A stretch of 64,000 nucleotides of DNA from Bacteroidales bacterium (GTDB lineage: Bacteria; Bacteroidota; Bacteroidia; Bacteroidales; UBA932): positions 17,136 to 81,135 of the forward strand of contig JAEEJZ010000047.1 of assembly GCA_016282145.1 (NCBI GenBank), written 5' to 3'. Position 1 is the stretch's first letter. The number at the start of each line of letters is the position of its first letter. The notes under the pieces are model-generated. The model was given only the letters and a program-made list of their open reading frames with translations. It was not told where the DNA came from and searched no databases. Position numbers and translations under genes: made by a program. Below are positions 7,734 to 38,623 of this stretch, one piece after another.

Positions 7734-10700
7734 ATGTCATTCATTCAAAAAGTGCTCTGTGTCGCCTTGTTGCTGACCTTGAGCTCATTCCTGGCCCCGG
7801 CACAGACGGTTTCCGTCGATTATAATGCCGTCAAGTTGAGTTATGCCATTTCTGACATCCAGCGGCAGACGGGCTATCATTTTGTGTACAACAATTCCCT
7901 CGTGAACGTGGATGCTCCCGTGACGGCCAAGGCCAGCGGGACGCTGCGCGATGTTCTGGATGCCGTCCTGGCGGACCTCCCGGTGAATTACGAAATCATT
8001 GACCGGCAGATTACCTTGACGCCTGCGAGAAAAAAGGAAGTGCCGGCCAAGGTCACCCTTTCCGGGGTGGTCAGCGATGATACCGGCGCCGCCCTTCCCG
8101 GGGTCTTTGTACTGGAGAAGGGCAGTAAAAATGCCACTTCGTCGGATGCTGCGGGAAAATATTCCCTCAGCGTGTCGCCGGGAGCCGTCGTTGTCTTCAG
8201 CTCGATGGGGTTTAAAGATGCCGAGTATACGGTCCCTCGCGCCGGTGGCAAGTTGGATGTGCAACTCTCCTCGGATATCAACTACCTGGACGAGGTAGTG
8301 ATTGTCGGTTACGGTGTCCAGAAACGGGCCAACCTCACCGGTGCCGTTTCTACGATCAATTTCAGCGAAGGGCTGGAGTCCCGGCCCATTACCTCCACTT
8401 CATCCGCGCTGGGCGGTCTCGCCCCGGGTCTTGCCGTCACGCAGACTTCCGGACAGCCGGGCGAGGACGGGGCAACCCTCCGTATCCGCGGTAACACCAC
8501 TCTCAACTCCAACAGCCCGTTGGTGCTGGTGGACGGCATCGAGTATTCCATGGATAACATCAATCCGCAGGATATCGAGTCCATCACCGTCCTGAAGGAC
8601 GCCTCCTCCACGGCCATCTACGGAAGCCGGGCGGCGAACGGCGTCATCCTCATCACCACCAAAGGGGGACAGGCCGGCAAGGTCCACATTACCTACGGAA
8701 ATAACCTGACCCTCCAGATGCCTTATCTGGGCGGGCTGCAATACGTGACGGACTACGCAGAGTCCATGCGGCTCGTGAACGAGGGAACGGACAACATCGG
8801 CATCGCTCACGTATACTCGGACCAGACCATCGCCCTCTGGGAGAATGCCAAACTCTATCCGGATGAACTGAATGCCTACGGCGTTAAGAATGCGATCGCG
8901 TATCCCAATACGGACTGGTTCAAGGAAACCTTTCACAATGGTTTCATGCAGTCGCACAATATCTCCTTATCCGGCGGCACGGAGAAAGTCAAGGCCTATG
9001 CCTCCCTGGGGTTTCTGGACAACCAGGGCGTGATGAGCCATCATGGAATGAGCAGCGGAACGACGAAATTTGACGTCCGTACCAATGTGGACGTGAAGTT
9101 CAACGACTGGCTCTCCGCCGGTGTAAAACTTTTCGGAGAGCGCCAGAACTACGGGATGATGAACCTGTCGTCCGGGTTTCAGTATTTGAAAATGACCATC
9201 CCGGGAATGTATCCCGGAGAACCGGACAAATGGGGATATATCGCAACGGACGAAGAGAATGCCAATGCCAACAACATTTTCAAGAATATGGCCGGCCGCG
9301 AAGGGGAGAAATATACCTACCGGGGCTCCGCTACGGCATACCTGAAAGCGCAACTCTACAAGGGTCTGTCGCTCGAGGTGAACGTTAACCATAACTTCAC
9401 CCACGGTTACGAGCACAGGTACACGGCTTCGACGAGGGTCTGGAATTATGTTACGGATACTGTCCAGAGTGAGTCCTCTCTCAGCACGGCGTCCAATACC
9501 ATCAGCATCTCCGACAGTTTCCGGACGAACGGGGAAGCGCTTCTGCGTTACAACGGAACCTTCGGGAAACACGAAGTCGGCGCCCTTGCGGGTTATTCCA
9601 TCAACTATCATATCGCTCCCTACCATTCCGTGGAAAAGCAGGGAAAGAGCGACTGGAGCATCACGGAAATGTCGGCTTATACGACGCTGCTTTATTCGGA
9701 CAGTGGCAATTCCGAGTGGGGACTGATGTCCGGGTTCGGTCGCGTGAACTATGCCTATGACGGAAAGTATCTCTTTGAAGCCAACCTCCGTTACGACGGT
9801 TCCTCCCGTTTTGCCCCCGAATCCCGCTGGGGTCTGTTTCCCTCCTTTTCCGCAGGCTGGCGCATCAGCCAGGAGAAATGGATGAAGGGTGCGTCCTCCT
9901 GGCTCGATAACCTCAAACTCCGCGCTTCCTGGGGTGTGACCGGTAACAACAACTCCGGGAACTATGCCTGGCAGAGTACCTATTCTTCCGTGAACGTGGT
10001 GTCCGGCAATTCGGAAACCACCGGTCTCGTCGTGACCGCCCTGGGCAACAGGGCCCTGGAATGGGAAACGACCCGGACGGGAGATATCGGCGTGGACTTC
10101 GGCTTCTTCGGCAACCGGCTCACCGGTGAGATCGACGGTTATATCCGCAACACGAGCGGCATCCTTTTCCGGCCGACCATCCATATGACGATGGGAACCG
10201 TCACCGCTCCTTACGAGAACCTGGCAGCGGTACAGAACAAGGGTGTGGAACTCGGCATCAAGTGGCGGGACGGCGTCGGCAAGGACTTCAGCTACTCCGT
10301 CGGCCTCAACCTTTCCTACAACCTCACCACGGTAAAAAAGTATAAGGGAAAGCTGGTCCAGCAATGGGTAGAAGACGAAGAGGGTAACCGCAGCTATGTG
10401 AACAACATCGGCGATGTGGCCCAGAGCGGTTTCGGCGGCTATATCGTGGAAGACCATATCCTTGGCGACCAATATATGCGCAGCCTTTACAAGGGAACCG
10501 GCGCCGGCTACTCCGGCGAGGGTCCCGTGGACATCAAGGCCGGTCCTGTGGACGGTATGATCCGCACGGAGGCCGATATGAAATGGCTGATTGCAATGGT
10601 CTCCGCCGGTTACAAATTCCAGGGCGGCCAGAGCATCTCCAAGAATACGCTCTATTACGGAGATTTTATCTATGCGGACCTTAATGGGGACGGAGACTAT

Positions 10701-11213
10701 GGCGACAACAACGACCAGCACTTTACCGGCCACAGTTATACGCCCAAGTGGACCTGCGGCCTGAACCTGAACCTCCGCTGGAAGAACCTCGATTTCTATG
10801 CGTTGCTGACCGGCGCCTTCGATTTCTACCTGAACTGGAACACCAGTGTGTACAACACGACGCTGGTCAACCAGGCTCAGGCCATCATGCGCAGGATTGC
10901 CGACGACCACTATTCGGCCGCGACGCCCAATGCAACCTATCCCCGTCTCACCTACAACAAGACGCTCAACAACGAGCTTTCCGAATTCTATCATTACCGT
11001 GGCGATTATGTGAAAGTGAAGAGCCTTCAGTTGGGCTACTCCCTGCCCAAAAAATGGATGGACAAGATCCGTATCGAGGGCATACGTTTCTATCTGAACG
11101 GCGAAAACCTCTTTACCATCACTTCCTATCCCGGATTGGATCCCGAAATCGGTACCTCCATCGGATATCCTCTGATGAGGAGTTTCAGCGGTGGTCTTCA
11201 AGTGAATTTCTAA
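7734..11213 (+). CDS. SusC-like TonB-dependent outer-membrane receptor with STN domain
   Basis: This 1159-residue outer-membrane glycan importer begins with a signal peptide (LTLSSFLAPAQ). A secretin/TonB N-terminal (STN) domain at about residues 25-90 (VKLSYAISDIQRQTGYHFVY) is the part that talks to FecR. A carboxypeptidase-regulatory beta-sandwich follows at about 105-180 (GVVSDDTGAALPGVFV), then the plug (DEVVIVGYGVQKRANLTGAV; VLKDASSTAIYGSRAANGVI) and a 22-strand-type barrel ending in Phe (GGLQVNF). It is the first gene of a susC-susD-phosphatase operon with gaps of 13 and 6 bp. Together with the sigma/FecR pair it forms a trans-envelope signalling relay. The substrate is unknown. Confidence 0.96.
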   Translation: MSFIQKVLCVALLLTLSSFLAPAQTVSVDYNAVKLSYAISDIQRQTGYHFVYNNSLVNVDAPVTAKASGTLRDVLDAVLADLPVNYEIIDRQITLTPARKKEVPAKVTLSGVVSDDTGAALPGVFVLEKGSKNATSSDAAGKYSLSVSPGAVVVFSSMGFKDAEYTVPRAGGKLDVQLSSDINYLDEVVIVGYGVQKRANLTGAVSTINFSEGLESRPITSTSSALGGLAPGLAVTQTSGQPGEDGATLRIRGNTTLNSNSPLVLVDGIEYSMDNINPQDIESITVLKDASSTAIYGSRAANGVILITTKGGQAGKVHITYGNNLTLQMPYLGGLQYVTDYAESMRLVNEGTDNIGIAHVYSDQTIALWENAKLYPDELNAYGVKNAIAYPNTDWFKETFHNGFMQSHNISLSGGTEKVKAYASLGFLDNQGVMSHHGMSSGTTKFDVRTNVDVKFNDWLSAGVKLFGERQNYGMMNLSSGFQYLKMTIPGMYPGEPDKWGYIATDEENANANNIFKNMAGREGEKYTYRGSATAYLKAQLYKGLSLEVNVNHNFTHGYEHRYTASTRVWNYVTDTVQSESSLSTASNTISISDSFRTNGEALLRYNGTFGKHEVGALAGYSINYHIAPYHSVEKQGKSDWSITEMSAYTTLLYSDSGNSEWGLMSGFGRVNYAYDGKYLFEANLRYDGSSRFAPESRWGLFPSFSAGWRISQEKWMKGASSWLDNLKLRASWGVTGNNNSGNYAWQSTYSSVNVVSGNSETTGLVVTALGNRALEWETTRTGDIGVDFGFFGNRLTGEIDGYIRNTSGILFRPTIHMTMGTVTAPYENLAAVQNKGVELGIKWRDGVGKDFSYSVGLNLSYNLTTVKKYKGKLVQQWVEDEEGNRSYVNNIGDVAQSGFGGYIVEDHILGDQYMRSLYKGTGAGYSGEGPVDIKAGPVDGMIRTEADMKWLIAMVSAGYKFQGGQSISKNTLYYGDFIYADLNGDGDYGDNNDQHFTGHSYTPKWTCGLNLNLRWKNLDFYALLTGAFDFYLNWNTSVYNTTLVNQAQAIMRRIADDHYSAATPNATYPRLTYNKTLNNELSEFYHYRGDYVKVKSLQLGYSLPKKWMDKIRIEGIRFYLNGENLFTITSYPGLDPEIGTSIGYPLMRSFSGGLQVNF

Positions 11214-11226
11214 TTTTGCAGCGGAT

Positions 11227-13125
11227 ATGAAAAAGCACAGCATATTGGTTTCCCTCGGTCTGATTCTCCTCACTTCCTGTACGGGGATTCTGGACACGGC
11301 GCCCAGGAGTCAGATTTCCGACAATAACATGTGGACGACCCCCAGCCTCTCCAAGGCCGGCGTGGACGGGTTGATGTACACCTTGTACCGGCACATAGAC
11401 GGATTAAGCACCATCGTTCCCAGCGACGGTAGCGGAGGATTCAACCGTATCGGTCTCGAAGGGATGGGCTACACCAGCATCCTGGACGACTCCAACCATT
11501 TCCTGAAAAACGCTACCAAGAAAGCTTCAGGTCTGGAAAACTCTTCGGAGTGGAGGAGTATGTATAACACTATCCACGCCTGTAACAGGGCCATCGCGCA
11601 CCTGGACAGAAAGGTGGTGGGTGACAAACTCTACGAGCAGTATATCTGCGAGGCCCGTATGATCCGCGCATTCTGCTACACCCGTCTGGTGATGCTGTTC
11701 GGCGAAGTTCCCGTCTACCTGGAAGAGGTCCAGGATGTCGATTGCACCAAATCACAGACAGTCTGGGACGATTGCTGGGCGATGATTATCAAGGAATGTA
11801 CGGAATGCATCGACAATGCCGGCTTCCAGGCCAACAACTTTGCCGGCGACAGACTGTACAAGCCCTCCAAAGGAATGGCCTATGCCCTGCGGGGGAACGC
11901 CTATATGTGGCTGGCGGCGGACAAGAATCCAGAAATCTATCCCGATGGTACCAGCATCGGCGCAGCACGCATCAAGGAGTATTATCGCCTTGCTGCCGCC
12001 GATTTCGCACAGGTGAAGGCCTGCGGCTTCGGCCTTTGGCAGGGCAAGTGGGAAGATCTGTTCTCCTATACCAATGAGCATAACCAGGAAATGATTTTCC
12101 CCTTGGAATTTACCTTTACGGATGGATTCTCCTCTATCTGGCAATGGGTGATCGGAGCCCGGTCGCACCTGAATTCCTGGACACGTCTCGTTCCTTCCAC
12201 CGCATTCGTGGACGACTTTGAGTGGAGTGACGGCCGTGCTTTCAATTGGGCTGACGTGCTCCCCGGCTGGAGTAAGCTCACGGAAATCGAGCGAGAGGTA
12301 TTCTTCCTGAGGGACAGCCTCAAGACCTTCAGCAAGTATGTGGAGGAAGGCACCGATGTGGAAAAATACATCACCCTCAGCGGTCAGCTGGAGAAGGTCG
12401 TCAGCCGCATCGGTCAGGAGACTTTCGATGCCTATTATCTCGATTTGGGAAATGAAGCCCGGCTGCGTACCGGTTTCGACGGGCGCGACCCCCGGCTGGA
12501 TAAAGTCGTGGTTACGCCCTACAAGAAGTATCAGTTCATCAACGAGACCAGCCTTACCCCGATTGATTTCCAGCTCCGCTGGCCCCGTTTCAAGCGTCAG
12601 GACGGTGTGGAGGATTCCGACCTGTTCCCTGAATTCGCTTCCAATATGGTCTATCTCTGGAACAAGGGGATTGTCAATGATGGTTCCACGCTGGATCGCA
12701 ATTATGACGGTACCGACTGGCCGCTGATCCGCTTTACCGAAATCCAGCTGATGTGGGCGGAAGCGCTTCTGGGCTCCGATAATCCCGGAGATGCGCTGAA
12801 CCTGCTGAACGAAGTCCGTACCCGGGCGGGTATGCCGCCGTTCCCGAGCCAGGATCCTGTCAGCCTCTTGAACGAAATCCGCTACGAAAGCCGTGTGGAA
12901 CTTTGCCTGGAAGGAAAAGACTTCTTTAACGAAATTCGCTGGAACACCTTCAAGGAGAAGAAATTCCAGGGTAAGGATTTCTGGGATCCCCGTTCCTGCT
13001 GGAATTCCGGAGGCTGGAAGACCGGTTATTATTACGTAGAGCATATGTGGCCGCTCAGCGCACCGCTGAACGAGATCGTGATGAATTCCAATCTCAAGAA
13101 GCGGCCCTGGTGCTGGACCTATTAG
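11227..13125 (+). CDS. SusD/RagB-like glycan-binding lipoprotein
   Basis: This 632-residue surface lipoprotein has the lipobox LTSC (Cys18). SusD hallmarks are the N-terminal helix-rich TPR region (YNTIHACNRAIAHLD; ICEARMIRAFCYTRLVMLFGEVPVY) and the C-terminal block around RFTEIQLMWAEALL and YESRVELCLEGKDFFNEIRW. SusD proteins sit as a lid on their SusC partner and capture oligosaccharide. It lies 13 bp after susC and 6 bp before the phosphatase gene, so it belongs to the same transcript. At 632 residues it is somewhat longer than the usual 500-600. Confidence 0.95.
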   Translation: MKKHSILVSLGLILLTSCTGILDTAPRSQISDNNMWTTPSLSKAGVDGLMYTLYRHIDGLSTIVPSDGSGGFNRIGLEGMGYTSILDDSNHFLKNATKKASGLENSSEWRSMYNTIHACNRAIAHLDRKVVGDKLYEQYICEARMIRAFCYTRLVMLFGEVPVYLEEVQDVDCTKSQTVWDDCWAMIIKECTECIDNAGFQANNFAGDRLYKPSKGMAYALRGNAYMWLAADKNPEIYPDGTSIGAARIKEYYRLAAADFAQVKACGFGLWQGKWEDLFSYTNEHNQEMIFPLEFTFTDGFSSIWQWVIGARSHLNSWTRLVPSTAFVDDFEWSDGRAFNWADVLPGWSKLTEIEREVFFLRDSLKTFSKYVEEGTDVEKYITLSGQLEKVVSRIGQETFDAYYLDLGNEARLRTGFDGRDPRLDKVVVTPYKKYQFINETSLTPIDFQLRWPRFKRQDGVEDSDLFPEFASNMVYLWNKGIVNDGSTLDRNYDGTDWPLIRFTEIQLMWAEALLGSDNPGDALNLLNEVRTRAGMPPFPSQDPVSLLNEIRYESRVELCLEGKDFFNEIRWNTFKEKKFQGKDFWDPRSCWNSGGWKTGYYYVEHMWPLSAPLNEIVMNSNLKKRPWCWTY

Positions 13126-13131
13126 GCTGAT

Positions 13132-14325
13132 ATGAAAAAGGTCGCCCTATGGCTGCTTGCCGCGGCGGCCTTTTTTGCTGCCGCCTGCCAGAAAGACGGG
13201 CCGGAGCCCCTGCCCCCGGGCCCGGAGGTCCCGAGTGTCTTCCAGCTGGAGAACGCCGTCGTACGCTCCTATCTGGATTTCCTGGAGCAACTCCCGTACA
13301 AGGATTCGGATTATAGTTACTCCTACATTGACGATTACTATCTTCTGACTACCATTTACCGCAAGGACCGTCCGCTTCCCGCCCGTGTCAGTTGGCAAAG
13401 GGAAAGCGGCACGCAGCGCCTCTACATTGCGGATAATCCCGATTTTACAGAACCCCTGAGTTATCCCGTAGGCGCCCTGACGGAAAGTTATGAAATCTAT
13501 AACCTGATTCCGGGACGTCAGTACTGGTGGAAGGTCGTATCTTCAGCCAGTTCGAATGTTGTCGGGGAAGGTACGTTCCGTACGGAAGGCCGTCGGCGTT
13601 TCCTCAATATCGACAACATCTGCAACCTGCGTGACCTGGGCGGCATTCCCACGGCCGACGGAAGCCGGCGCATCAAATTCGGACTGTTGTTCCGGGGTGG
13701 CGAGATGAACGGATATCATCAAGATTACGAAGGAAGGTATACCCGTCTGGGCGATAACGGGAAATCGGAAATGTTGCGCTTGGGCATACGGGCGGATTTG
13801 GATATGCGCACGGCTTCGGAGGCCCTGGAGATTACCGAATCCCCGCTGGGGCCGGAGATCGATTATATCCGTTTCGAGACGGCCAATAATTATTATTACG
13901 ACAAATTCTGGCTCGCCGACGATTACATCCGGGCCCTGCAATGGACCATTGATGAATTGCGCAAAGGGAAGCCTGTTTTCTTCCACTGCATTTACGGGGC
14001 GGACCGTACCGGCACGATGGCTTTCCTGATGGAAGCCCTCCTGGGGGTAAATGAAAACCACCTGGCCATCGACTACGAACTCACCTCTTTTTCCTATGGT
14101 CTGGAATCTGCCCCCCGCCGCCGCGGTCCCAGAAACGAACTCAGCGTTTACCGCTACCGGCAGATGGTGGAAGGCCTGCGGTCTTCGGTCTTTGAAGGCA
14201 GCACGCTCCAGCAAAGGGTCTATAACTTCTTCCTGAACGGCTATCCCTATGCACCAAAAAAGACCGTCAGCATTTCTGCTGACGATCTTGACTGGTTTAT
14301 TTCAACAATGTTGGAAGAGGTCTGA
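13132..14325 (+). CDS. secreted tyrosine-phosphatase-family lipoprotein
   Basis: This 397-residue lipoprotein has the lipobox AAAC (Cys19). A fibronectin-III-like region follows (about 80-150: PARVSWQRESGTQRLYIAD, YEIYNLIPGRQYWWKV). The catalytic domain has the NLRDLGG signature of the PF13350-type phosphatases and a complete P-loop HCIYGADRTG with the nucleophile Cys near residue 285. The Asp-Arg pair in ADRTG resembles enzymes of this class with broad or lipid substrates more than classical protein phosphatases. The enzyme would act outside the cytoplasm, so a glycan or lipid phosphate is a likelier substrate than phosphotyrosine. It is the third gene of the susC-susD operon, a place often held by a glycan-binding protein. 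It ends 3 bp from the converging stop of the next gene. Confidence 0.85.
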   Translation: MKKVALWLLAAAAFFAAACQKDGPEPLPPGPEVPSVFQLENAVVRSYLDFLEQLPYKDSDYSYSYIDDYYLLTTIYRKDRPLPARVSWQRESGTQRLYIADNPDFTEPLSYPVGALTESYEIYNLIPGRQYWWKVVSSASSNVVGEGTFRTEGRRRFLNIDNICNLRDLGGIPTADGSRRIKFGLLFRGGEMNGYHQDYEGRYTRLGDNGKSEMLRLGIRADLDMRTASEALEITESPLGPEIDYIRFETANNYYYDKFWLADDYIRALQWTIDELRKGKPVFFHCIYGADRTGTMAFLMEALLGVNENHLAIDYELTSFSYGLESAPRRRGPRNELSVYRYRQMVEGLRSSVFEGSTLQQRVYNFFLNGYPYAPKKTVSISADDLDWFISTMLEEV

Positions 14326-14328
14326 GTC

Positions 14329-15981
14329 TTACTCGTTCAAGACGGCACGGATACGCAGACCATCCCAGACCCAACTCTTGTTGTTGGCGTAGTTCTCGCC
14401 GTAGATCAGACGCATCTGGCAAGCCCGGTTCCAGTAATTATTGGATCCTCCGGTACCGTAGTCGGTGCAGGACATCCAGTAGCGGCCCTGGGCACCGTCG
14501 GTATTGATGGCGCCGTTGTCCGTGTAGGAACAGCGGTAGAAGACCAGTTCAGCGCCGTTGGCCTGATAGACGATGGCGCCCATCGCAGAGGATTTATAGC
14601 CGTAGGCGTTGGTGTAGGTGTCCTTCTCGTACTCGGTGTAACTGAGTTTGTCATCCACGTCAATCTCTTCCGTCAGACGATATTTTCCGTCCTTGAGAAG
14701 GTTGCAGCAGACTTCGTTGGAAGGCATCCGCCACTCGCTGCCCCATTTGACACGTGCGGCATCATACTTGGTCCCGCCGATATCATAGAAGGTTCCGGGG
14801 CCCGATTGCAGACCGCCGCCGCCGGCGTAGTTGACCTCGATGAAAGGACTGACACCCTCAGCCGGGCAGATGAATTTATAGCCGCGCTGCGTGTTATAGG
14901 TTCCGCCGGAGTTCCAACGATAGTTGTCCCTGCTGAATTTTGTTTTCGCTTCAGTCTCGCCCCAGGCGTAGAGATATCCGTTGATGGCATCATCCGAGGT
15001 CGGCGTGCTTCCGCCCACGTTGAACGGTGCCCAGCTGCCCAGCGGATAGCTCTTGCCGTCATAACTGATGCTGCCCATCCGGATGGCGTCGGAAGCAAGG
15101 GGACGGGCCATCAGGTCCAGGTTGCTCATATTGTAGGTTCCCGTACGTCCTGCCTTGGCGGACAGGTTGGTCGAGATGGCCTTGCCCTGGGAAAGGCGCT
15201 TGTCAGCGCTCATGATGGTCACGATCAGACCCGCGAGACGGTTCTCCGAAGAGTGCATCAGGTCGATGGCGGGAACGGCGAGATAAGCCACCTGCTTGGC
15301 CGCGGAAACGGCCGGCAGGGTCAGCATATGGACCGCCTCTTTCTCGGTGCTGGAGACCGTCGCCTGAGCCTTTCCTGCAGAAGTGACATCCCAGCCGCCG
15401 TTATGGGTTTTGCCGGTGTTGAACTCGATGTACTGGATGCCTGCGGGCAGCAGGATGCGCAGCACATAGCTGAGCCGCTTCCCTGTGGCAAAGTCAAAGG
15501 CGGGGCTTGTGCCGGTGGACTGGGCTACGGCATAATCGTAGTTGCCGATCTTGCCCAGCGTGCCGTCCTGGCCGTCATAGCTGCAGACCAGCGTCCCGTT
15601 CTGGACATCGGCCTTGCCGCTGACGGCAACCCAGGTGGTGTTCTCATCGGCCGCTACGGCGCCGGTGGACTTGAATTCCGCGGAAGCGCCGCTGCCGGTG
15701 GTGGTGAAAGTGACCTTAGTCACTACGTCGCCGTTGATTTCCAGGGCGGTAAAGCTGTCTCCGCTTTCCCAGGCACCTGCTACGATATCGGCAATCTCCT
15801 CCACTTCGGAGTAGTTGTCGACATAATTGACCTTGGATTCGCCAAAGGCGCCGGGGGCGGTCGCCGTTGCCGTAATCACTACGCCGTCTTCGCTGTTTGC
15901 AGGGGTCTCAAGGTTTTCCTTGGTGCAGGCTGCCATCAGCGCGAAGGCGCCGAACAATAGGGTAAGTCTGTAAAATTTCAT
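14329..15981 (-). CDS. fimbrillin-like / FISUMP-like surface lipoprotein
   Basis: This 550-residue lipoprotein has the lipobox MAAC (Cys19). Residues about 30-290 match the N-terminal module shared with the genes at 16206, 19555, 31040 and 34132: W..GD.F.ALEI, then WVAVSGKA, Y.GQ.G, and LSYVLRILLPAG. They look like a two-sandwich fimbrillin/Mfa-like fold. The C-terminal part has a FISUMP-like signature (WAPFNVGG, YAWGETE, YDAARVKWGSEWRMPSNEV, ending LRIRAVLNE). The function is unknown. A surface glycan-binding role is possible because the gene sits in the PUL and the FISUMP fold may relate to lectin/FGE-like folds. It lies 15 bp downstream of a small lipoprotein gene. Confidence 0.7.
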   Translation of the reverse strand: MKFYRLTLLFGAFALMAACTKENLETPANSEDGVVITATATAPGAFGESKVNYVDNYSEVEEIADIVAGAWESGDSFTALEINGDVVTKVTFTTTGSGASAEFKSTGAVAADENTTWVAVSGKADVQNGTLVCSYDGQDGTLGKIGNYDYAVAQSTGTSPAFDFATGKRLSYVLRILLPAGIQYIEFNTGKTHNGGWDVTSAGKAQATVSSTEKEAVHMLTLPAVSAAKQVAYLAVPAIDLMHSSENRLAGLIVTIMSADKRLSQGKAISTNLSAKAGRTGTYNMSNLDLMARPLASDAIRMGSISYDGKSYPLGSWAPFNVGGSTPTSDDAINGYLYAWGETEAKTKFSRDNYRWNSGGTYNTQRGYKFICPAEGVSPFIEVNYAGGGGLQSGPGTFYDIGGTKYDAARVKWGSEWRMPSNEVCCNLLKDGKYRLTEEIDVDDKLSYTEYEKDTYTNAYGYKSSAMGAIVYQANGAELVFYRCSYTDNGAINTDGAQGRYWMSCTDYGTGGSNNYWNRACQMRLIYGENYANNKSWVWDGLRIRAVLNE

Positions 15982-15996
15982 GGCTGACCTCCTTTT

Positions 15997-16179
15997 TTAT
16001 TCGTCCCAACTTGCAGGTCCGTCATCAACGAATCCGGCAGGGGCTACATTGTTGGATGTAATCTCCGTAGTCGGTTCGGGGCCCGGACCCGGAGGGGTCG
16101 GGGTGGGTTTGTCTTCGCAGGCGCTCAGGACCGTGAGGGTCAGCGCTGCAGCCAGAATAAGCAGAAGTTTTTTTCTCAT
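15997..16179 (-). CDS. small acidic lipoprotein, unknown function
   Basis: This 60-residue peptide has a clear lipoprotein signal (LLLILAAALTLTVLSAC, Cys21), a proline-rich linker of PTPTPPGPGPEP type and an acidic tail ending PASWDE. It lies between the phosphoesterase lipoprotein gene at 16206 and the fimbrillin-like gene at 14329, with gaps of 26 and 15 bp, so all three can be one leftward transcript. I do not recognise a family. It could be a small partner of the neighbouring lipoprotein. A different small ORF sits in the same place upstream of the gene at 34132. Confidence 0.6.
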   Translation of the reverse strand: MRKKLLLILAAALTLTVLSACEDKPTPTPPGPGPEPTTEITSNNVAPAGFVDDGPASWDE

Positions 16180-16205
16180 AATACTATGATTTGGGTGTTA
16201 ATGGG

Positions 16206-19200
16206 TCAGTTTTCGTTATCTTCTTCCAGTGAAGGGGCTTCGCCGCCGGCCTGGGCATTCTGTCCGGGGCCGGGTGCAGGAGGGTCGGTGGACCAGACAT
16301 AATGGCTTCCTATGGGATAGCCGGTATAATCCCGGGAGAGTACATTGGCGCTGTAGGTCTTCTCCCGTCCGCCAGGAATGGCGTGACGGGCCGTGATCTT
16401 CCAGTCCGTCAACGCGGCAGGATCTCCGCCGGGCGCATCGATCACCCACCAGGTGTAGGAGGTCTTCCCCCAGTTGCCGAACTTGGAATGAATCACCTCT
16501 ACGTAATAAGAATCCGCGCACTGGTCGATGATGGCGCTGGAGAGGCGCGTCATGGGGACGGTTACTCCGTTGTGGGTGAAATTGAGACTCCAGGTTTCCT
16601 CTTCTGCAGAGAGGGCCGGGTCATCCCCGTCCCATACGCGGGCCAGGAATTTCCCCTTGTAGGCAGCGTCCCACTGATATCCGGAATAATTGTCGTTGCC
16701 GCTGTACACGCGGATCTGGAATTCTTCGCTTTCCTTCCAGGTCTTGTTGTATTCCCAATTGAGTGAAGATCCCTCGAAGGTGAAGACCCCATAGCCGGCG
16801 GGGCTTCCGTTGGCGGAGACGTCGGCAAGCCAGATCTGGCCGCTCAGGGACTGCATGTTATGCTCGATGATGGGAGCACCGCTCGCGGAGCGGAAACTCC
16901 GGTGGGTATAATTGGTCAGGTTGTGCAGGTGACCGGTGAAGATGTGCGCCTCCTTGAAGGAGCGCAACAGTTTCTTGACCTCGTCCACGTTCCCGACGGG
17001 GTTATACACCGCCGCGTGGGTGCAGAAGATGGCCAGCTTGTCGGATTTGTCGCTGACGGCGGCGATGTCCTGCTTGAGCCAGTGCAGCTTCTCGCCCGTG
17101 ATGCGCTCGCTGTACTTGATATGGTTGTAGCCGCCGCTGCCGCCCTCGATGCTGCCATTGAAATCGATATCGTCCATCACCACCACGTGCGCATTCCCGA
17201 TATCGAAGGAATAGTCCGTGGGACCGAAATTCTTCAGGAAATTGGCGGTACTCTCGTCGTCGGTGCCACCGGCGATGCTCTGGTGGTCGTGGTTGCCGAT
17301 GGTATAGAAGAAGGGCATGGTGCCGCCCGCACTTTGTACGCCGGTATACACCTCCCGGATGCCGGGGACCATGTCGAAATTGTCCGTCAACTGGTCGCCC
17401 AGGGCCATGCCGATTACCTCGCCGCCTTCAGCATTGAGCTGCCTGACCGTCCTCTGGATATCGGCAAACGCCTCTTCCCGGAAGCGGGCAAGATGCTCTT
17501 CATTCTGTACATGGGCATCCGCCACGGTAATGAGCGTAAAGCGTGATACGGCCTGCTTGCGCGGGGTGAGGGAGAAGTCTGCGACCACGGTGGCGCCGTG
17601 CTTGGCAGGGATGAGCTGGTAGAAAGCGGGACGTCCGTCCTCTCCCAGCGGGATTTCATAGCCTGAGGGGATGGTGACATTGATGGAACGGGCCGCAGGA
17701 TTGGCTTCCATACGGTAGGCGCCCTCCGCATCGGTCTTGCAGCAGGTATAACCGTCAGATACGGTGACGCCGGCGATGCCCTTGCCCGTGACTGCATCGG
17801 TGATATGGCCGCTTGCCGTCAGCTCAGCGGGAATGTCGCTGTCCTGCGCGAGCACGGGCCGCACGGAGAAGGCATAACCGCATTCCTGCGACATGAGGTC
17901 CACCTGACTGTTCCTGACGTACAGACGATAGGCTTCTGCGCGCCCGGAGACATTATTGTGCGCTCCGCCGAAGTAATAGCCTGCCTTGCCCACCATCGAT
18001 GCCGTTCCAGTCTCCGCTCCGGCGGTATAGTAATACCTTCCGGCGAAGGGGAAGAAGATGGTGACTCCGTTCTTGCTGAAGGTGCGCCCGCTCACAGCCA
18101 CGCCCTTGTATTCGGAAACATCGATGGTAGTGAAGATGTTGTCCGTCTTGGCGGAACGCCCTGCGTTGCAGGTGAATACCTCGTTGTTACCGTTGAAACT
18201 CATCATCTCCTCGAGGAAAGGCATGCGCCAGGCGCGGCCCCACTTCACGCGCGCTACGTCGTATTTGGTGCCGGAGATATGCTTGAGGTTCAGGGTGATG
18301 TCGGCGCGTCCAGTGTAGGCGCGGACAGTGCCCAGCGACTCATCCTTTCCCATATGACGGTAGGAGGCGGCGCTGTACGAACTGCGCTGCTCCGTCTCGC
18401 CCCAGGCGAAATAGCCGCCGTAGGTCTCTTCCGCAGTCGTAGGGGAGGCCTTCGCTCCCAGGTTGAACGGTGCCCAGAGCGGGGAACAGGAAAGGTCGTA
18501 AATATCATTTATCCCGTCCCAGGAACTGTTGTTGATGTACTGAAGGGTACAGGAGAGTTGTGACAGGAAATTGATGGCTTCGGTGGGGAGGGGCCTGTCA
18601 ATGAGGCTATCCATCTCAAGGGTTGCGACGTGCCCGCCTTTCGCGGAGAGGTCGGCACTGAGCACCTTGCCCTGGGAGCGGGTTTCAGCCTTGCTCATAG
18701 CGGTGACGATGAGCCCGGCACTGGAATAATCGACGGCCGGAACGGCCAGATAAGCGATTTGACCCGCGCTGCTTTCTTGAGCCATTTCAAGGAGCCGGGT
18801 TGCCTTGGGGTGGTAATCCGGCGTGCAGGCGGCCGTGTTCCCTTCCTCGTCGATAATCCATTCGTCCCCGGAGGCCCAGGTGTTGAATTCCAGTTTCCCT
18901 ACGCCTTCCGGCAGTTTGAGCCGGAGCAGGTAACTGAGGTGCCTGCCCTCGCCGTAATCGAAGTCCGGCGTCTCTCCTTGGGCGCGGGCGAGCATATAAT
19001 CGAAATGCTCCAGCCCCTTCAGGCTGCCGTCCTGCCCGCTGTAGTTGCAGTGGATGGTCCCGTTGTCGAAGGCGGCGCTTTTTCCCAGAACGGCTACCCA
19101 GCGGGTCTGCGCATCCGCCGCGACGGCACCGCTGGAGGTGAAACTCGTCTTTTGGTCCGCAGGAGCGGTGGCCGTAAAGGTGACGGGCGTAATGGTGCTG

Positions 19201-19445
19201 CCGTTGATTTCCAGGGCGAGGAAGGTATCTCCGGTCACCCAGCCGGTCTTGATACCGTCGGTTCCGGGGTAATGATCCTCGTAAATCATCTTGGAACGGT
19301 CGTCCGGCAGCGTTGCCGTAGCAGTAATGATAACTTCCTCAGTATTGACGGGTTGCTCCGCCGGTTCCGTCGTACAGGAAATACCCGTAGACAATAAGAA
19401 GACCGGGCATAGGAGCCTGGTGAGTATTTTCTCCAACATACGCAT
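16206..19445 (-). CDS. fimbrillin/FISUMP-like plus calcineurin-like phosphoesterase lipoprotein
   Basis: This 1079-residue lipoprotein has the lipobox TGISC (Cys24). Its order is: fimbrillin-like module (about 30-290), FISUMP-like module (about 320-530; WAPFNLGA, GGYFAWGETE, YDVARVKWGRAWRMP), a beta-sandwich N-terminal metallophosphoesterase domain (about 540-635; GVTVSDGYTCCKTDAEGAYRM), the catalytic calcineurin-like domain (about 636-890) and a C-terminal metallophosphoesterase beta domain. Metal-ligand motifs are complete: ADAHV near 643, GDQL near 683, GNHDH near 718, CTHA, and GHLHN near 837. The family hydrolyses phosphomono- or phosphodiesters. The enzyme would be surface- or periplasm-anchored. 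It is divergent from a same-architecture paralog at 19555. Confidence 0.85.
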   Translation of the reverse strand: MRMLEKILTRLLCPVFLLSTGISCTTEPAEQPVNTEEVIITATATLPDDRSKMIYEDHYPGTDGIKTGWVTGDTFLALEINGSTITPVTFTATAPADQKTSFTSSGAVAADAQTRWVAVLGKSAAFDNGTIHCNYSGQDGSLKGLEHFDYMLARAQGETPDFDYGEGRHLSYLLRLKLPEGVGKLEFNTWASGDEWIIDEEGNTAACTPDYHPKATRLLEMAQESSAGQIAYLAVPAVDYSSAGLIVTAMSKAETRSQGKVLSADLSAKGGHVATLEMDSLIDRPLPTEAINFLSQLSCTLQYINNSSWDGINDIYDLSCSPLWAPFNLGAKASPTTAEETYGGYFAWGETEQRSSYSAASYRHMGKDESLGTVRAYTGRADITLNLKHISGTKYDVARVKWGRAWRMPFLEEMMSFNGNNEVFTCNAGRSAKTDNIFTTIDVSEYKGVAVSGRTFSKNGVTIFFPFAGRYYYTAGAETGTASMVGKAGYYFGGAHNNVSGRAEAYRLYVRNSQVDLMSQECGYAFSVRPVLAQDSDIPAELTASGHITDAVTGKGIAGVTVSDGYTCCKTDAEGAYRMEANPAARSINVTIPSGYEIPLGEDGRPAFYQLIPAKHGATVVADFSLTPRKQAVSRFTLITVADAHVQNEEHLARFREEAFADIQRTVRQLNAEGGEVIGMALGDQLTDNFDMVPGIREVYTGVQSAGGTMPFFYTIGNHDHQSIAGGTDDESTANFLKNFGPTDYSFDIGNAHVVVMDDIDFNGSIEGGSGGYNHIKYSERITGEKLHWLKQDIAAVSDKSDKLAIFCTHAAVYNPVGNVDEVKKLLRSFKEAHIFTGHLHNLTNYTHRSFRSASGAPIIEHNMQSLSGQIWLADVSANGSPAGYGVFTFEGSSLNWEYNKTWKESEEFQIRVYSGNDNYSGYQWDAAYKGKFLARVWDGDDPALSAEEETWSLNFTHNGVTVPMTRLSSAIIDQCADSYYVEVIHSKFGNWGKTSYTWWVIDAPGGDPAALTDWKITARHAIPGGREKTYSANVLSRDYTGYPIGSHYVWSTDPPAPGPGQNAQAGGEAPSLEEDNEN

Positions 19446-19554
19446 ACTTACACTACACTTTTCGTGCCTCTTTCCCCTGACAATATACGCATTTTTAAAT
19501 AAGGGGGGAAGGCCCCGATTCGTGTATTATTACCGATAAAGCACTAACGTACCA
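19446..19554. promoter_or_regulatory. divergent promoter region between the two phosphoesterase paralogs
   Basis: This 109-bp gap separates two divergent paralogs. The plus strand has GTGTATTATTA at 19522-19532, 22 bp before the ATG. The minus strand has a GTGTAGTGTAAG stretch immediately before its ATG. The layout mirrors the GH3/susC gap, which hints at common regulation. Confidence 0.35.
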
Positions 19555-22500
19555 ATGAATCTCTTTCACAAGTTTTCTTTTGTTGCAGCTCTGACGGGAG
19601 CTGTCCTGACCGCTTCTTGTACGAAGGAAATCGTTCCGCAAGAAGGAATTACGGAAATTATCGCCACCGCCTCTCTCCCCGAAAGCGACGGCACCAAAGT
19701 CATTTATTCGGAAACCGATCCGTCCGGGAAGCATAGCGGCTTGAAGTCGGTATGGGAAGAAGGGGATTTCTTTTATGCCTTCTCTTCTGCCGGCGGCTGT
19801 GTCCGCTTCGAGCTTCAGTCCGGCGCCGGGAGCAAGACTGGCGTTTTCAAGGCTACGACAAGCGGCGTAGGGGCGTCCACTACCTGGAAAGCCGTCTTGG
19901 GAGCCAGTGCGGAGCAACTTTCCGCCAACCTGATCCAATGCCCGTACAGTGGCCAGGAGGGAACGCTGGATGCCCTGGGGGACTATGATTATATCATCTC
20001 GGAAGCGACGGGCACCGGCCCCAATTTCAATTTCTCCGGCGGTACCCGCCTGTCCTATTTCCTGCGCATCAAACTTCCCGCGGGCGTACGCTTTCTGGAA
20101 TATTGTACCACGGCGTCCTGGAAAGTTTCCCCGTCCACGCATTCTGTCCTTTCCGACGGGAATTACGATAATGTTTCGCTTACCGATCTCGGCCACACGT
20201 CTTCCGAGGGAGAGGTTTGCTACCTGTCCATCCCGGCAATCCAGTACGGGAACTACATCACCGATAGCCCGAGGGGCGTAATCATCACCTTCTTCAATGC
20301 CGATATGAACAAGTCCAACGGCCGGGTACTCAACGCCAATGTCAGCAGCAAGGCGGGACAGATCGGTACCTTTGACCTCAGCGGCATGGAACTCATCGAC
20401 CGTCCCCTTCCGTCTGAGGGCGTTTCGCTCGGAGGGCTGTCCGTACTGATCCGCAAGGATCCCGACAGTGACTTCTGCAATAAGTACAATAACCTTGAAG
20501 ATTATCAATACCGCACCGCAGTCGCTCCCATTTGGGCGCCCTATAACCTCGGCGCGAGGGTTACCGCGGCTTCGCCTACGGCTCAAGATCTTTACGGCGA
20601 CAGTTTTATGTGGGGAGAAACGGCCCCGCGCACCTCTTTCTCTTCCAGTAATTGGACCTATAACGGAACCCATACGGTGGGGGATTTGGAGAACTTCCCT
20701 TCCATCCAGCTCGGCTATTACGAATCCGTTGCGGTTTCCGACGGCTCTTCCGACGGAACCTTGAAGTTCCAGCGGATTAACGGTACCAAGTACGATGCGG
20801 CCCGCGTACGCTGGGGCCACGACTGGAGAATGCCCACCATCGAGGAACTCGTCGGCCTGATTGGCGACAATATCAGCATTGACATTTCGGATAGCCAGAC
20901 TACAACCTCTTCCGGTCTTACAACAAAGATTGAGACCATCGACTTCTACAATGTAGGTCGGACCGTCAAGGGCCGCTGGTTCAAGAACGGGGACAACACG
21001 GTATTCCTCCCCTTCGGTGGCTGGTACGGTACCGGTCACGCCTATTACGGCGCCCGCGGTTTCTACTGGAGCGACAGCCGTATCCGTGCCACACCCTCCA
21101 ACCCGAATCTTACCAATGCGACACTTCGTTTTGAGATGACGGGCAGCTCGCTCAATTACGGCCGCAACAGCAGCCCCTCGACGGAGATGTATTACGGTCT
21201 CGCCATCCGTCCGGTCCGGAACATCGTGGATATGAACGGTTCCGCTTCCGCCCCTTCCATCTGGGAGGATTGCGGCGAGAGCACCATTCTGCCCACTTCC
21301 AACCTCTGGGGTGTCATCAGGGACGAAAACGACAATCCCATTCCGGGAGTCGTCGTCTCCGACGGTTATTCCTGCGTAAGGACCGACATCAACGGAACCT
21401 ACCAGATGGCGGCCAATGCGAAAGCCCGTACCGTGAACGTGACCATCCCGGCCGAATATGAGATTCCGCTCGATGCCAACGGCCGTCCGGCCTTCTTCCA
21501 GTATGTGACAATTCCTTCCACGGGAAACATCCAGCGGGATTTCACCCTTACGCGCAGGGCCAGCGTCCCCGAGCGCTTCACCCTGCTGGCCATTGCCGAT
21601 GCCCACGTGCAGACCAGTACGCAACTCAGCAGGTTCCAGACCGCCATCGATGATATCGAGGAGACGGCGACTACACTGAAGACTACGGGCATTCCCGTGG
21701 GAGACGGCGGAGAAGCCGGCGAAGTGATTGCCGTCGCGTTGGGTGACCAGCTTTCCGACAAACTGTCCATGGCCTCCTCCGTCATCGATAAATTCTCCAC
21801 CCTGAGCATTCCCGTATTCTATACGATCGGCAATCACGACTACGATTCTTCCAAGGAGAGTGATTACGATTCCGAGACGGCCTTCGTGAATGCCTTCGGC
21901 CCCACCAACTATTCCTTTGACATCGCGAATGCCCACGTCATTGTAATGGACGACATCGTGCGCCGGAGCGGCAACACTGACAGGGGCGACGGATATTACA
22001 GCATCAACTATGGCGCGGGCTTCACGGAGGAACAGGTGGCCTGGCTTCAGGATGACATTTCCAAAGTCCTCGGTTCCAAGACCAAAGTCGTGGTATTCTG
22101 TGTCCACGCTCCGCTCAACAGCGCTTCCGCCGGCGACAGCGGTACGCAGAATGCCGTCATGGGCGCCTTGAAGAACAACTTCTACAACGTACACGTTTTC
22201 TCCGGCCACACGCACCACATCAACAACAACCTCTACTCAGGCTGGGCGGCCAAGAGCGGACGGCAGATTTACGAGCACAACCTGCAGACCCTGTCCGGTT
22301 ATTTCTGGGAGGCTGATATCGCCTATGGCATCGGCAGCCCGGCCGGTTATGGCGTATTCACTTTCGGCCATGACGATCTCTATGCTGAATACAACAAGAT
22401 CACCAAGGAGGATCCCGGCGTTCAATTCCGCACTTACAACGGCGGTGAAACCTATACCCGCAGCGGGAAATCCTACAGTTGGGACAGCCCCGTAAGCGGC

Positions 22501-22851
22501 AAATATGTCGTCCGTCTCTTCGATGCAGGAGACGCTGACGACGGTCTGGACTACTGGCAGGTTTATGTGACGAAAGGCGGCACCACCACCGAACTGACGC
22601 GGGTATCCACTGCCATTAACGACCGTGCCGCCCACTGCTATCTCGCCAAATACTTCGACAACGAGCACGGCGGAGCGGGGGAGGACACGGACCAGTTCTG
22701 GTATTCTTCCGCCAGCTATGCCAGCAGCGGGTACACCATTACCGCCGTCCATACGATGAAGAGTGGCTGGACGGCCACCTATACCGGCAAGCATTTTGTA
22801 AATGGGTCTACATACAAGGGCTTCGGCTATGGTGTAAGGTACGATGACTAA
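19555..22851 (+). CDS. fimbrillin/FISUMP-like plus calcineurin-like phosphoesterase lipoprotein
   Basis: This 1098-residue paralog of the divergent neighbour has the lipobox TASC (Cys22). The fimbrillin-like module spans about 30-300 (W..GDFFYAFSSAGG, WKAVLGASAEQ, LSYFLRIKLPAG). The FISUMP-like module spans about 325-555 (WAPYNLGARV, MWGETAPR, YDAARVRWGHDWRMPTIEEL). The metallophosphoesterase N-domain (GVVVSDGYSCVRTDINGTYQM), catalytic domain and C-domain follow. Metal-ligand motifs are complete: ADAHV near 681, GDQLSD, GNHDYD near 759, CVHA, and GHTHH near 883. It would act outside the cytoplasm on a phosphate ester of unknown nature. It is 15 bp upstream of the phosphoesterase-lyase gene on the same strand. 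Confidence 0.86.
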   Translation: MNLFHKFSFVAALTGAVLTASCTKEIVPQEGITEIIATASLPESDGTKVIYSETDPSGKHSGLKSVWEEGDFFYAFSSAGGCVRFELQSGAGSKTGVFKATTSGVGASTTWKAVLGASAEQLSANLIQCPYSGQEGTLDALGDYDYIISEATGTGPNFNFSGGTRLSYFLRIKLPAGVRFLEYCTTASWKVSPSTHSVLSDGNYDNVSLTDLGHTSSEGEVCYLSIPAIQYGNYITDSPRGVIITFFNADMNKSNGRVLNANVSSKAGQIGTFDLSGMELIDRPLPSEGVSLGGLSVLIRKDPDSDFCNKYNNLEDYQYRTAVAPIWAPYNLGARVTAASPTAQDLYGDSFMWGETAPRTSFSSSNWTYNGTHTVGDLENFPSIQLGYYESVAVSDGSSDGTLKFQRINGTKYDAARVRWGHDWRMPTIEELVGLIGDNISIDISDSQTTTSSGLTTKIETIDFYNVGRTVKGRWFKNGDNTVFLPFGGWYGTGHAYYGARGFYWSDSRIRATPSNPNLTNATLRFEMTGSSLNYGRNSSPSTEMYYGLAIRPVRNIVDMNGSASAPSIWEDCGESTILPTSNLWGVIRDENDNPIPGVVVSDGYSCVRTDINGTYQMAANAKARTVNVTIPAEYEIPLDANGRPAFFQYVTIPSTGNIQRDFTLTRRASVPERFTLLAIADAHVQTSTQLSRFQTAIDDIEETATTLKTTGIPVGDGGEAGEVIAVALGDQLSDKLSMASSVIDKFSTLSIPVFYTIGNHDYDSSKESDYDSETAFVNAFGPTNYSFDIANAHVIVMDDIVRRSGNTDRGDGYYSINYGAGFTEEQVAWLQDDISKVLGSKTKVVVFCVHAPLNSASAGDSGTQNAVMGALKNNFYNVHVFSGHTHHINNNLYSGWAAKSGRQIYEHNLQTLSGYFWEADIAYGIGSPAGYGVFTFGHDDLYAEYNKITKEDPGVQFRTYNGGETYTRSGKSYSWDSPVSGKYVVRLFDAGDADDGLDYWQVYVTKGGTTTELTRVSTAINDRAAHCYLAKYFDNEHGGAGEDTDQFWYSSASYASSGYTITAVHTMKSGWTATYTGKHFVNGSTYKGFGYGVRYDD

Positions 22852-22866
22852 AAACGAAAACGGAAG

Positions 22867-25800: not shown

Positions 25801-26265
25801 AATTATCACAATGTTCCGCAAATCAATACCTGTGCGCAGGAGTACGGACGGAGCTTCAAGGCGACGGACTGCCGGTCCGACAGCCGCACGAAGAGTTTCA
25901 GTGCAGATATTGCGGAGGCTTATCCCGATTCCGCCGGCGTGAAATCCTGGGTGCTGAACTACCGCTTGCTGAAAGACGGAGCGTTGGAAATCCGGGAGCG
26001 CTTCGAGATGCGCACAGGGGAAGTCCCTGCGGAGTTGCATTTCCTCCTCCCTGCCGAGCCTGATCTGGCCACTGCAGGCTGTGCCGGGCTGAATGCCGGG
26101 CTGAAGCTTTATTACAATGCCGGGACTTTCAGCGTCTCTGCCGAACGGATTCCGCTTGAGGGGACCGGCGTAAGCGGCTATGGCGGCGATGCGCTATGGC
26201 GCCTCAGCCTGACGGCCCGTTCCCTGCCGCAAAAAGGCGAATTCGTCCTGAAAATTACCCGTTAA
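22867..26265 (+). CDS. calcineurin-like phosphoesterase-heparinase II/III-like lyase fusion
   Basis: This 1132-residue protein starts with a short hydrophobic leader (LFSLLLMLTVPVSG). The first half is a metallophosphoesterase: N-domain (GVVVSDGYHCTATDAAGRYF), then ligand motifs TDAHFG near 107, GDQLSD, GNHDHD near 179, CIHA, and GHEHN near 297, and a C-domain to about 515. The second half (about 520-1132) is a heparinase II/III-like polysaccharide lyase with an alpha/alpha toroid (WNPWCNSNAILCFML) and the catalytic block RERHNHNDVGSCIYYYDG near 930-945 followed by LVDAGKGTYN. Such lyases cleave uronic acid-containing polysaccharides. Both active sites look intact, so one polypeptide would remove a phosphate ester and cut a uronate chain. 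I see no internal stop or frameshift. Confidence 0.88.
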   Translation: MLFSLLLMLTVPVSGTVVSSLNGRGIEGVVVSDGYHCTATDAAGRYFLDADSLARTISITVPAAYEIPLAADGAPAFFKYIDSGERDFVLSPRKKVSERFTLIAVTDAHFGHVNSIERFSGESIPDIQKTIERHCSSGPVIGIALGDQLSDRMEDAAAVKPLYNGLACAGKTMPFFYCIGNHDHDNTGGKSEYAVTEHFVRHFAPTDYSFDIGKVHFVVMDDIQYTGTQRDGKKISYTCGLTDAQLEWLRQDISLVRDRGNKAVVFCIHAGLYGRFSYKDEVKALLGEFREAHVLSGHEHNINNIRHAASIWEHNLQSIGGAWWYSNLSPSGCPIGYGVFTFNGPVLWEEYNKTTTEDSDFQLRVYDGNDAYDGNCLFTGLKAAPKRTEVYGWPEAWKGCFVARIWDATPDWEVSFVQNGVETPMRQIQEKYFDAASAAFMVDVFGAPFGGSRVYKPKVDTFWILEAPSGDPAAETDWEIVARHRMPSGRVESYRSSILMRDFRGFETGTHHLRNYDRHILLDAARKVDIGESLVTDQAWVPYPAYADRAGWEALLGRYKEDFIARGEQFLGFDYLLLRATDYLEYTRTGDRYAQEDRLAENAEALSSLMMAELAEGRGRFLDDIINGTFYFCGLDSWAVSDHLYKFQQVHTPLPDYKEHILALYQGNYAQMLSWIGYFFHAEFDKADPMISERLRYEIKQRELDPYLERNGFDWMGFRAKATPNNWNPWCNSNAILCFMLMENDPIRLKAAVEKSVISVDRYLESLKTDGACDEGPVYWYTSGGYLLNYLQCLRLITGGRIDIFDAPLLRNFGEYIVHAQVDGVHQANFADARPATGINTSLILRFGKAVGSTLMQDFAVHTYAQKGYDPVDADWSCFYRAMENLRTCAELEAAGRRAFKPSPFTWYPETELCFMRSGKGYLAVKGGNNRERHNHNDVGSCIYYYDGQPVLVDAGKGTYNSKTFDKRYRYQIWNMSSNYHNVPQINTCAQEYGRSFKATDCRSDSRTKSFSADIAEAYPDSAGVKSWVLNYRLLKDGALEIRERFEMRTGEVPAELHFLLPAEPDLATAGCAGLNAGLKLYYNAGTFSVSAERIPLEGTGVSGYGGDALWRLSLTARSLPQKGEFVLKITR

Positions 26266-28785: not shown

Positions 28786-30969
<2,184 letters not shown>

Positions 30970-38546: not shown

Positions 38547-38611
38547 TACAAATAATACCCGAAACTGGGCGGATTACCTTATGAAATCAGGGAAGTTTCC
38601 GAAGGAAAGTG

Positions 38612-38619: not shown

Positions 38620-38623
38620 TCAT

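Follow-up and report, generated by a model that had tools for sequence, protein, structure and literature searches.

A 64,000-nucleotide stretch of the genome of a Bacteroidales bacterium (contig JAEEJZ010000047.1, positions 17,136 to 81,135; hereafter, the window) carries a predicted polysaccharide utilization locus (PUL) that likely dephosphorylates a glucuronate-containing heteroglycan ahead of its digestion by a lyase and glycosidases. In this locus, a SusC/SusD pair and carbohydrate-active enzymes (CAZymes) are encoded together with four proteins of phosphoesterase families that are predicted to be exported, namely, a cysteine-phosphatase lipoprotein (PTP) and three proteins with calcineurin-like Metallophos domains (MPE1, MPE2, and MPE3), the last of which is fused to a lyase of family PL33. 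The locus spans ∼39 kb (3850 to 42928), more than the 19 kb (7734 to 26265) outlined by a first-pass annotation of the window. That annotation had recognized the PTP-type lipoprotein in the susCD operon and the three calcineurin-like domains with complete metal motifs, all with export signals, near a GH3 glycosidase and a uronate lyase domain, and the results below bear out each of these observations. Synteny, co-inheritance, gene fusion, and a common upstream element further indicate that the four phosphoesterase genes belong to the glycan locus.

Phosphoesterase-family proteins and the PL33 lyase

Domains were assigned by Pfam scans of the window open reading frames (ORFs) with the curated cutoffs. 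The adjacent susC and susD homologs are separated by 13 bases, and the PTP gene follows susD after 6 bases, all on the plus strand; the CAZymes of the cluster are GH3, PL33, GH97, GH78, and a GH2-GH88 fusion. Together, these genes provide the two hallmarks of a PUL. PTP scores 86.6 bits against PF13350 (Y_phosphatase3; cutoff, 22.2), and its Cys-x5-Arg P-loop, HCIYGADRTG (CxxGADRTG type), is intact. C286, G289 to G294, and the D224/R226 pair are invariant in all 26 aligned homologs, and the phosphatases matched by the PTP profile in the Protein Data Bank (PDB) are 8dhi and PtpB.

The MPE proteins share the domain order MetallophosN-Metallophos-MetallophosC (PF16371, PF00149, and PF16370). All three models score above the cutoff in MPE1 and MPE3, and in MPE2 PF16370 alone falls below it (25.7 versus 29.7). 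The metal site comprises eight residues (Asp, His, Asp, Asn, His, His, His, His), all of which are kept in the three window proteins and in 25/25 aligned MPEs from nine loci (7 MPE1, 9 MPE2, and 9 MPE3). Domain order and metal site are those of the wider family, of which no characterized member was found in the open-license literature; the locus proteins are set apart by a D-x-H first motif and, in MPE1 and MPE2, by an additional lipoprotein module of 540 to 575 amino acids. Read by eye, lipoprotein-like N termini are present in P0001 (PTP), P0002, P0003, and P0004, MPE1 and MPE2 included, and a plain signal sequence is present in MPE3 (P0005). The N-terminal module of MPE1 and MPE2 aligns with the lipoprotein denoted FIS (P0002), encoded between PTP and MPE1, at 31 to 36% identity over 557 to 588 columns. 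The MPE2 module has only a weak Pfam match, to Lcl_C (E 0.022), and FIS has no PDB match up to E 0.1 and no Pfam match at E 5. The identification of the FIS module with PF09603 (FISUMP), suggested by motif likeness only, was rejected.

The phosphoesterase-like domains could instead act on other glycan esters or on protein-linked phosphate, or serve as binding modules, phosphate being suggested by the family names only. Absent or remote PDB matches favor this alternative, which is nevertheless quite unlikely: the metal site and the PTP P-loop are kept in all aligned proteins (25/25 and 26/26), which would be unusual for mere binding modules, and two SGNH esterases in the locus already cover acyl esters.

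The domain previously labeled a uronate lyase is of the PL33_1 type and forms the C-terminal 615 residues of the MPE3 protein. Residues 509 to 1127 of P0005 have E values of 2e-161 to 2e-151 with four solved PL33 sequences (best, 8r73, with 542 bits over 615 residues) and match three other lyases far more weakly. The four sequences and their functional residues are those of a 2025 PNAS study (PMC11848413). In the alignment, the catalytic residues N238, Y291, and H444 of BtPL33 correspond to N726, Y779, and H934 of P0005, and the binding residues R103, H154, L174, and W239 correspond to R592, H643, L664, and W727. The marker W242 of PL33_1, replaced by Val in PL33_2, corresponds to W730, which places the window protein in subfamily 1. 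All eight residues are kept and are invariant across 14 aligned PL33 relatives. The window protein thus retains the catalytic Asn, Tyr, and His and the subfamily Trp of lyases such as BT4410; in contrast to them, it is fused C-terminally to an MPE and has lost its own signal peptide, and its lyase activity is predicted. The +1 subsite of PL33 is GlcA specific according to that study (PMC11848413), and a glucuronate-containing target is well supported by the predicted PL33 and GH88 domains.

The GH88 part of the GH2-GH88 protein, on which the Pfam GH88 model fell short, shares 76% identity with its counterpart in the MPE3-PL33-GH88 proteins of two related genomes (G696 and G698). For the GH2 part, an exo-beta-glucosaminidase was considered and rejected: the nearest structures are of the CsxA type, yet the acid/base region, in our own reading, has NE like ordinary GH2. 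Elsewhere in the same genome, a second PL33 (L117:9247-12240, contig C80), 50% identical to that of the window, is part of a 997-amino-acid protein whose GH88 region has 51% identity to that of the window.

A locus for host glycosaminoglycans, in which PL33 would cleave hyaluronan or heparosan-like chains while linkage-region xylose phosphate or other minor groups were left to the phosphatases, is very improbable. Xylose in the glycosaminoglycan linkage region can be phosphorylated, and the nearest structure to the GH88 domain is 3wiw (E 3e-98), which we take to be heparin specific. Tested PL33_1 enzymes act chiefly on hyaluronan or heparosan (PMC11848413). However, GH78, GH97, and GH92 (the last present in related loci) are unneeded for either polymer, four phosphoesterases for one rare phosphate are unlikely, and the titles of several relatives refer to rumen or reticulum samples.

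Conservation and gene fusions among relatives

A scan of genome contigs with the alignment of 26 PTPs yielded 62 loci, 11 of which (L012 to L021 and L024) encode a PTP ortholog (at least 53% identity). The other 51 PTPs are distant (at most 38%) and mostly long ORFs; SusC, SusD, MPE, and PL33 of the locus type were not found beside any of them, five have a GH3-like neighbor, and one of those five also has an esterase-like neighbor. The 11 ortholog loci, all with titles of uncultured Bacteroidia or Bacteroidales and five with titles that name rumen or reticulum samples, represent 10 genomes, or 11 with that of the window. SusD directly precedes PTP in 10 of these 11 genomes; in G694, it lies at the opposite end of the cluster. 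Among the nine loci with enough sequence, a set that omits the short contigs of G689 and G691, MPE2 and MPE3 are each present in 9/9, MPE1 in 7/9, and PL33 in 8/9; in G693, PTP and the MPE/PL33 genes are on two contigs. The two exceptions for MPE1 are the loci of G696 and G698, where it was not seen. G673, whose contigs are those of G698, has on another contig a full-length match to MPE2 with 38% identity, the level expected of MPE1, such that MPE1 may have moved rather than been lost. Some of the nine loci and 11 genomes are close relatives rather than independent cases: the G696 and G698 proteins (MPE2 and MPE3-PL33-GH88) are 98 to 99% identical, and the G691 and G692 PTPs are 99.7% identical.

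Among 295 genomes of the order, a PTP ortholog is present only in that of the window, with one other weak match (39%). Among 398 genomes of the family, PTP matches at 1e-30 occur in 48 and reach at least 55% identity in six (G000, G684, G665, G581, G671, and G673); judging from identical match coordinates, the last five correspond to G689, G697, G692, G696, and G698 and add no further cases. MPE2 matches at 1e-60 occur in 24 of the 398, and the five that are full length at 59% identity or more all fall within the six PTP genomes (hypergeometric 7e-11 for five of five, kinship ignored). The remaining 19 cover the catalytic half alone at 31 to 38% identity, and in the sixth PTP genome, G684, the PTP gene is on a 4.3-kb contig. 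PL33 matches at 1e-150 occur in 12 genomes, with at least 61% identity in four, again all within the six. A chance association of the phosphoesterases with the locus was rejected on the basis of synteny and co-inheritance across these partly related loci. In G671, a second full-length copy of MPE2, 59% identical, lies on another contig (G671:C70:11010-14321).

The same genes are joined in several relatives. MPE3 and PL33 are adjacent genes in G690, G693, G695, and G697, where each PL33 has its own signal-like sequence, and a single protein in four loci (those of the window, G694, G696, and G698). In G696 and G698, this protein extends to MPE3-PL33-GH88 (1507 amino acids), and a database protein (P0016) is 98 to 99.9% identical to these two. 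MPE domains are found in 10 of 120 listed PL33 relatives (1273 found), many others bearing GH88 instead. The fusion of a phosphoesterase with a lyase or glycosidase is the strongest sign that the two would act on one substrate. The G692 locus encodes a further phosphoesterase, a GH2-DUF4982-Malectin-Metallophos protein with the complete set of metal motifs (L015:13362-16859).

Shared upstream element and layout of the locus

The sequence GGG-N15-GTGTA occurs on both strands of both divergent intergenic gaps, GH3/SusC and MPE1/MPE2 (Table 1). The window has five exact matches, against a random expectation of 1.3 on average and 4 at most (60 first-order random sequences), and four of the five are in these gaps. 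The 2.0-Mb genome contains 23 exact matches, the four gap sites included, versus 52 for the reversed pattern, so the element is not a common word in this genome. With spacers of 14 to 16 bases, it precedes 7 of 42 nonoverlapping ORFs of the window, six in the locus, GH97 and GH2-GH88 among them, and one outside (52912 to 54090). At GH2-GH88, the annotated start falls inside the element, and the next ATG fits better. Across the loci, the element with these spacers precedes GH3 in 5/5 cases, SusC in 6/8, MPE2 in 8/9, and MPE1 in 5/7, versus none of 30 SusD, PTP, FIS, and MPE3 starts, which served as controls internal to the same clusters.

The gene for an extracytoplasmic function (ECF) sigma factor is found beside GH3/SusC in four relatives as well (L013, L015, L018, and L020). 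SusC has a weak match to the STN domain (PF07660; E 2e-6, slightly below the Pfam cutoff), which, together with the adjacent FecR/sigma pair, makes the ECF circuit the likely user of the element. Shared control by the adjacent ECF sigma factor is therefore likely. The first-pass annotation had held that its interpretation would fall if the genes were not co-regulated; the common upstream element points to co-regulation, at the sequence level.

TABLE 1 Features of the locus and their positions in the window
Feature	Position	Strand	Evidence or remark
FecR-type anti-sigma factor	3850..4851	-	PF04773/PF16344; 2 bases from sigma gene
ECF sigma factor	4854..5462	-	PF04542, E 5e-19
GH3 glycosidase	5476..7626	-	PF00933/PF01915
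Putative ECF promoter element, GGG-N15-GTGTA	7636..7658	-	Before GH3-sigma-FecR
Putative ECF promoter element, GGG-N15-GTGTA	7679..7701	+	Before SusC-SusD-PTP
SusC-like TonB-dependent transporter	7734..11213	+	PF00593, PF07715, PF07660
SusD-like lipoprotein	11227..13125	+	PF07980, E 8e-28
PTP (P0001), PF13350 Cys-phosphatase lipoprotein	13132..14325	+	E 3e-24; FN3-like region N-terminal
FIS surface-type lipoprotein (P0002)	14329..15981	-	No Pfam match; shares module with MPE1/MPE2 N termini
60-amino-acid lipoprotein-like ORF	15997..16179	-	Between MPE1 and FIS, same strand
MPE1, lipoprotein module plus MetallophosN-Metallophos-MetallophosC	16206..19445	-	Pfam
Putative promoter element, GGG-N15-GTGTA	19454..19476	-	Before MPE1
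Putative promoter element, GGG-N15-GTGTA	19504..19526	+	Before MPE2
MPE2, lipoprotein module plus MetallophosN-Metallophos-MetallophosC	19555..22851	+	Pfam
MPE3 (residues 1-505) fused to PL33 lyase (residues 512-1126), P0005	22867..26265	+	Pfam, PDB match
SGNH/GDSL esterase lipoprotein	26286..27650	+	PF13472; start re-read from 26196 ORF
SGNH/GDSL esterase	27681..28772	-	GxDLY plus Lipase_GDSL_3
GH97	28786..30945	-	PF10566, E 1e-99
GGG-N16-GTGTA element	30941..30964	-	GH97
GH78-type alpha-L-rhamnosidase	35934..38546	-	PF17389; 1351 bits to GH78 of related locus L146
GGG-N16-GTGTA element	38590..38613	+	Before GH2-GH88
GH2-GH88 fusion	38609..42928	+	2338 bits to L142:14381-18709

GH78 and GH2-GH88 are considered part of the system because of their matches to the L146 GH78 and to L142:14381-18709, the latter being the gene directly 3' of PL33 in another genome. 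An AbiEi/AbiEii toxin-antitoxin pair (32359 to 33983) lies inside the glycan locus, flanked by two FIS-like ORFs, one at 34132 to 35757 (33% identity to FIS) and one, recognized by eye, at 31040 to 32293. Genes for AAA/STAND-type ATPases occur at differing points of related loci (L142:4476-5606 and L119:1032-2231), as if these loci were collectors of mobile or defense cargo. Outside the locus, at the left edge of the window (46 to 1599), DUF4886 and glucuronoyl-esterase-like domains are encoded.

Proposed mechanism, alternatives, and significance

Under the reading proposed here, the PTP, MPE1, and MPE2 lipoproteins would lie at the outer surface with SusD and FIS and strip phosphate groups or phosphodiester substituents from the glycan, the module common to MPE1, MPE2, and FIS holding the enzymes on the substrate. 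SusCD would import the fragments, whereupon MPE3-PL33, predicted to be periplasmic, would clear residual phosphate and cut before 4-linked GlcA. GH88 would then remove the unsaturated GlcA, leaving the rest of the oligosaccharide to GH2, GH3, GH78, GH97, and the SGNH esterases. Import through SusC, which may have an STN domain, would pass a signal to FecR and the ECF sigma factor, which would turn on GH3-sigma-FecR, SusC-SusD-PTP, MPE1-FIS, and MPE2-MPE3-PL33 through the GGG-N15-GTGTA promoters. Bacterial capsules and exopolysaccharides commonly carry phosphate groups and phosphodiesters.

The locus resembles an ordinary Bacteroidota PUL with an ECF sigma/FecR pair in its SusC/SusD, lipoproteins, glycosidases, lyase, and esterases. 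It differs in the addition of three MPEs, one of them lyase fused, and a PTP lipoprotein, and no sulfatase was found among the locus proteins scanned with Pfam. The search of the open-license literature returned no PUL with several phosphoesterases for removal of glycan phosphate, a weak absence given that scope. The yeast-mannan PULs of Bacteroides thetaiotaomicron reportedly contain a single mannoside phosphatase among mannosidases. They too pair a phosphatase with a PUL for a phosphorylated glycan, whereas the window locus has four phosphoesterase-family proteins of two families, lyase/glycosidase fusions, and a glucuronate pathway.

The closest parallel on the phosphate side is the phosphate utilization system (PUS) of Flavobacterium. 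In the report on PUSI to PUSIV (PMC8115612), SusCD-like PusCD proteins are encoded beside exported phosphoesterases, as in the window, but these stand in place of CAZymes and the clusters respond to phosphate depletion; the window locus is CAZyme rich and has PF13350 and MetallophosN/C proteins and an ECF sigma/FecR pair. Because it carries both enzyme sets, it is read here as a hybrid of a PUL and a PusCD-type PUS and as a full member of neither.

It is unlikely that the locus is itself a PUS, in which SusCD and the phosphatases would scavenge phosphorus from organic phosphates (such as nucleotides, phytate, or lipid head groups), with the CAZymes as mere neighbors. This alternative draws on the Flavobacterium clusters, which pair SusCD with phosphomono- and diesterases (PMC8115612), and on the genome of the window, which encodes six further MetallophosC proteins in two clusters, C24 and C32. 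C24 has a second SusCD cluster (L074 and L075, ∼55 to 80 kb) with four MPEs of the D-x-Q type between GLUG/BACON proteins; no CAZyme was found among the seven C24 proteins scanned with Pfam, and a weakly GH2-like ORF (39 to 50 bits) lies ∼7 kb away. That cluster is possibly a true PUS. Unlike PusCD clusters, however, which by the same account (PMC8115612) adjoin phosphoesterases and not CAZymes, the loci studied here fuse MPE3 to PL33 and Metallophos to GH2. The window locus encodes an ECF sigma/FecR pair, and its scanned proteins included no visible phosphate regulator, no Pho-box search having been made. In addition, five of the six C24/C32 MPEs have D-x-Q in the first motif versus D-x-H in 25/25 locus MPEs, and the latter look like a separate subtype.

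Two more distant proteins bear on the MPE family. In C32, a 1690-amino-acid protein combines an MPE, a purple-acid-phosphatase-N/FN3-like stretch, and a GDSL esterase (L077:3295-8367). In the database protein P0303, a distant relative, an MPE is fused to a glycerophosphodiester phosphodiesterase (GDPD) domain, a hint that phosphodiester chemistry may occur in the wider family.

Dephosphorylation of a glucuronate-containing glycan nonetheless probably remains the function of the window locus, and several points weigh against it. The MPE family is not tied to uronates, given the six MPEs elsewhere in the genome, and the Metallophos fold is also found in enzymes that act on nucleotides and lipids. 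The best PDB matches of the MPE profile, purple acid phosphatases, reach only E 3e-9, so remote that mono- and diesterases cannot be told apart, and no activity assay for any member of the family was found in the open-license literature. The G692 locus encodes PTP and all three MPEs, but its PL33 is only on another contig, so the lyase and the phosphoesterases are separable. The fifth exact match to the upstream element lies outside the locus. The element was first noticed by eye in the very sequences used for the later counts, such that the counts describe it and are no independent test, and 5 of the 29 upstream checks failed as annotated; in three of these (L142 MPE1, L142 MPE2, and L145 MPE1), the element is inside an overlong annotated start, and SusC of L016 and L118 still misses it with spacers of 14 to 16 bases. 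Finally, no phosphate-bearing polymer was identified as the target. Of the dedicated system for a phosphorylated uronate glycan envisaged in the first-pass annotation, the glycan locus (SusCD and CAZymes) is supported and the glucuronate (PL33 and GH88) well supported, and the action of the phosphoesterases on glycan phosphate is a prediction.

The teichoic acid and phosphomannan suggested earlier as substrates found no specific support. GH92 is present in three related loci, in L143 by Pfam and in L145 and L146 by N-terminal sequence only, and is beside PL33 in L143 and L145. A GH92 enzyme that acts on Man-P-Man carries Gln at the acid position. Phosphomannan was rejected as a target on this basis, the one GH92 searched keeping the usual Glu acid and being closest to a plant N-glycan alpha-1,3-mannosidase.

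A broader proposal can be advanced only tentatively: that these loci form a new hybrid PUL/PUS class for phosphorylated glucuronate glycans, in which the surface PTP and MPEs would be glycan phosphatases or phosphodiesterases, dephosphorylation would be wired to cleavage by the MPE3-PL33, MPE3-PL33-GH88, and GH2-Malectin-Metallophos fusions, and one ECF sigma factor would control the whole. If so, the MetallophosN/C family and the PF13350 lipoproteins of SusCD operons, two protein families found by domain name only, would gain a first assigned role, and a testable one. If phosphate removal is indeed the function of the locus, it would name enzymes for editing phosphorylated glycans and would suggest that rumen Bacteroidales graze on the coats of other microbes.

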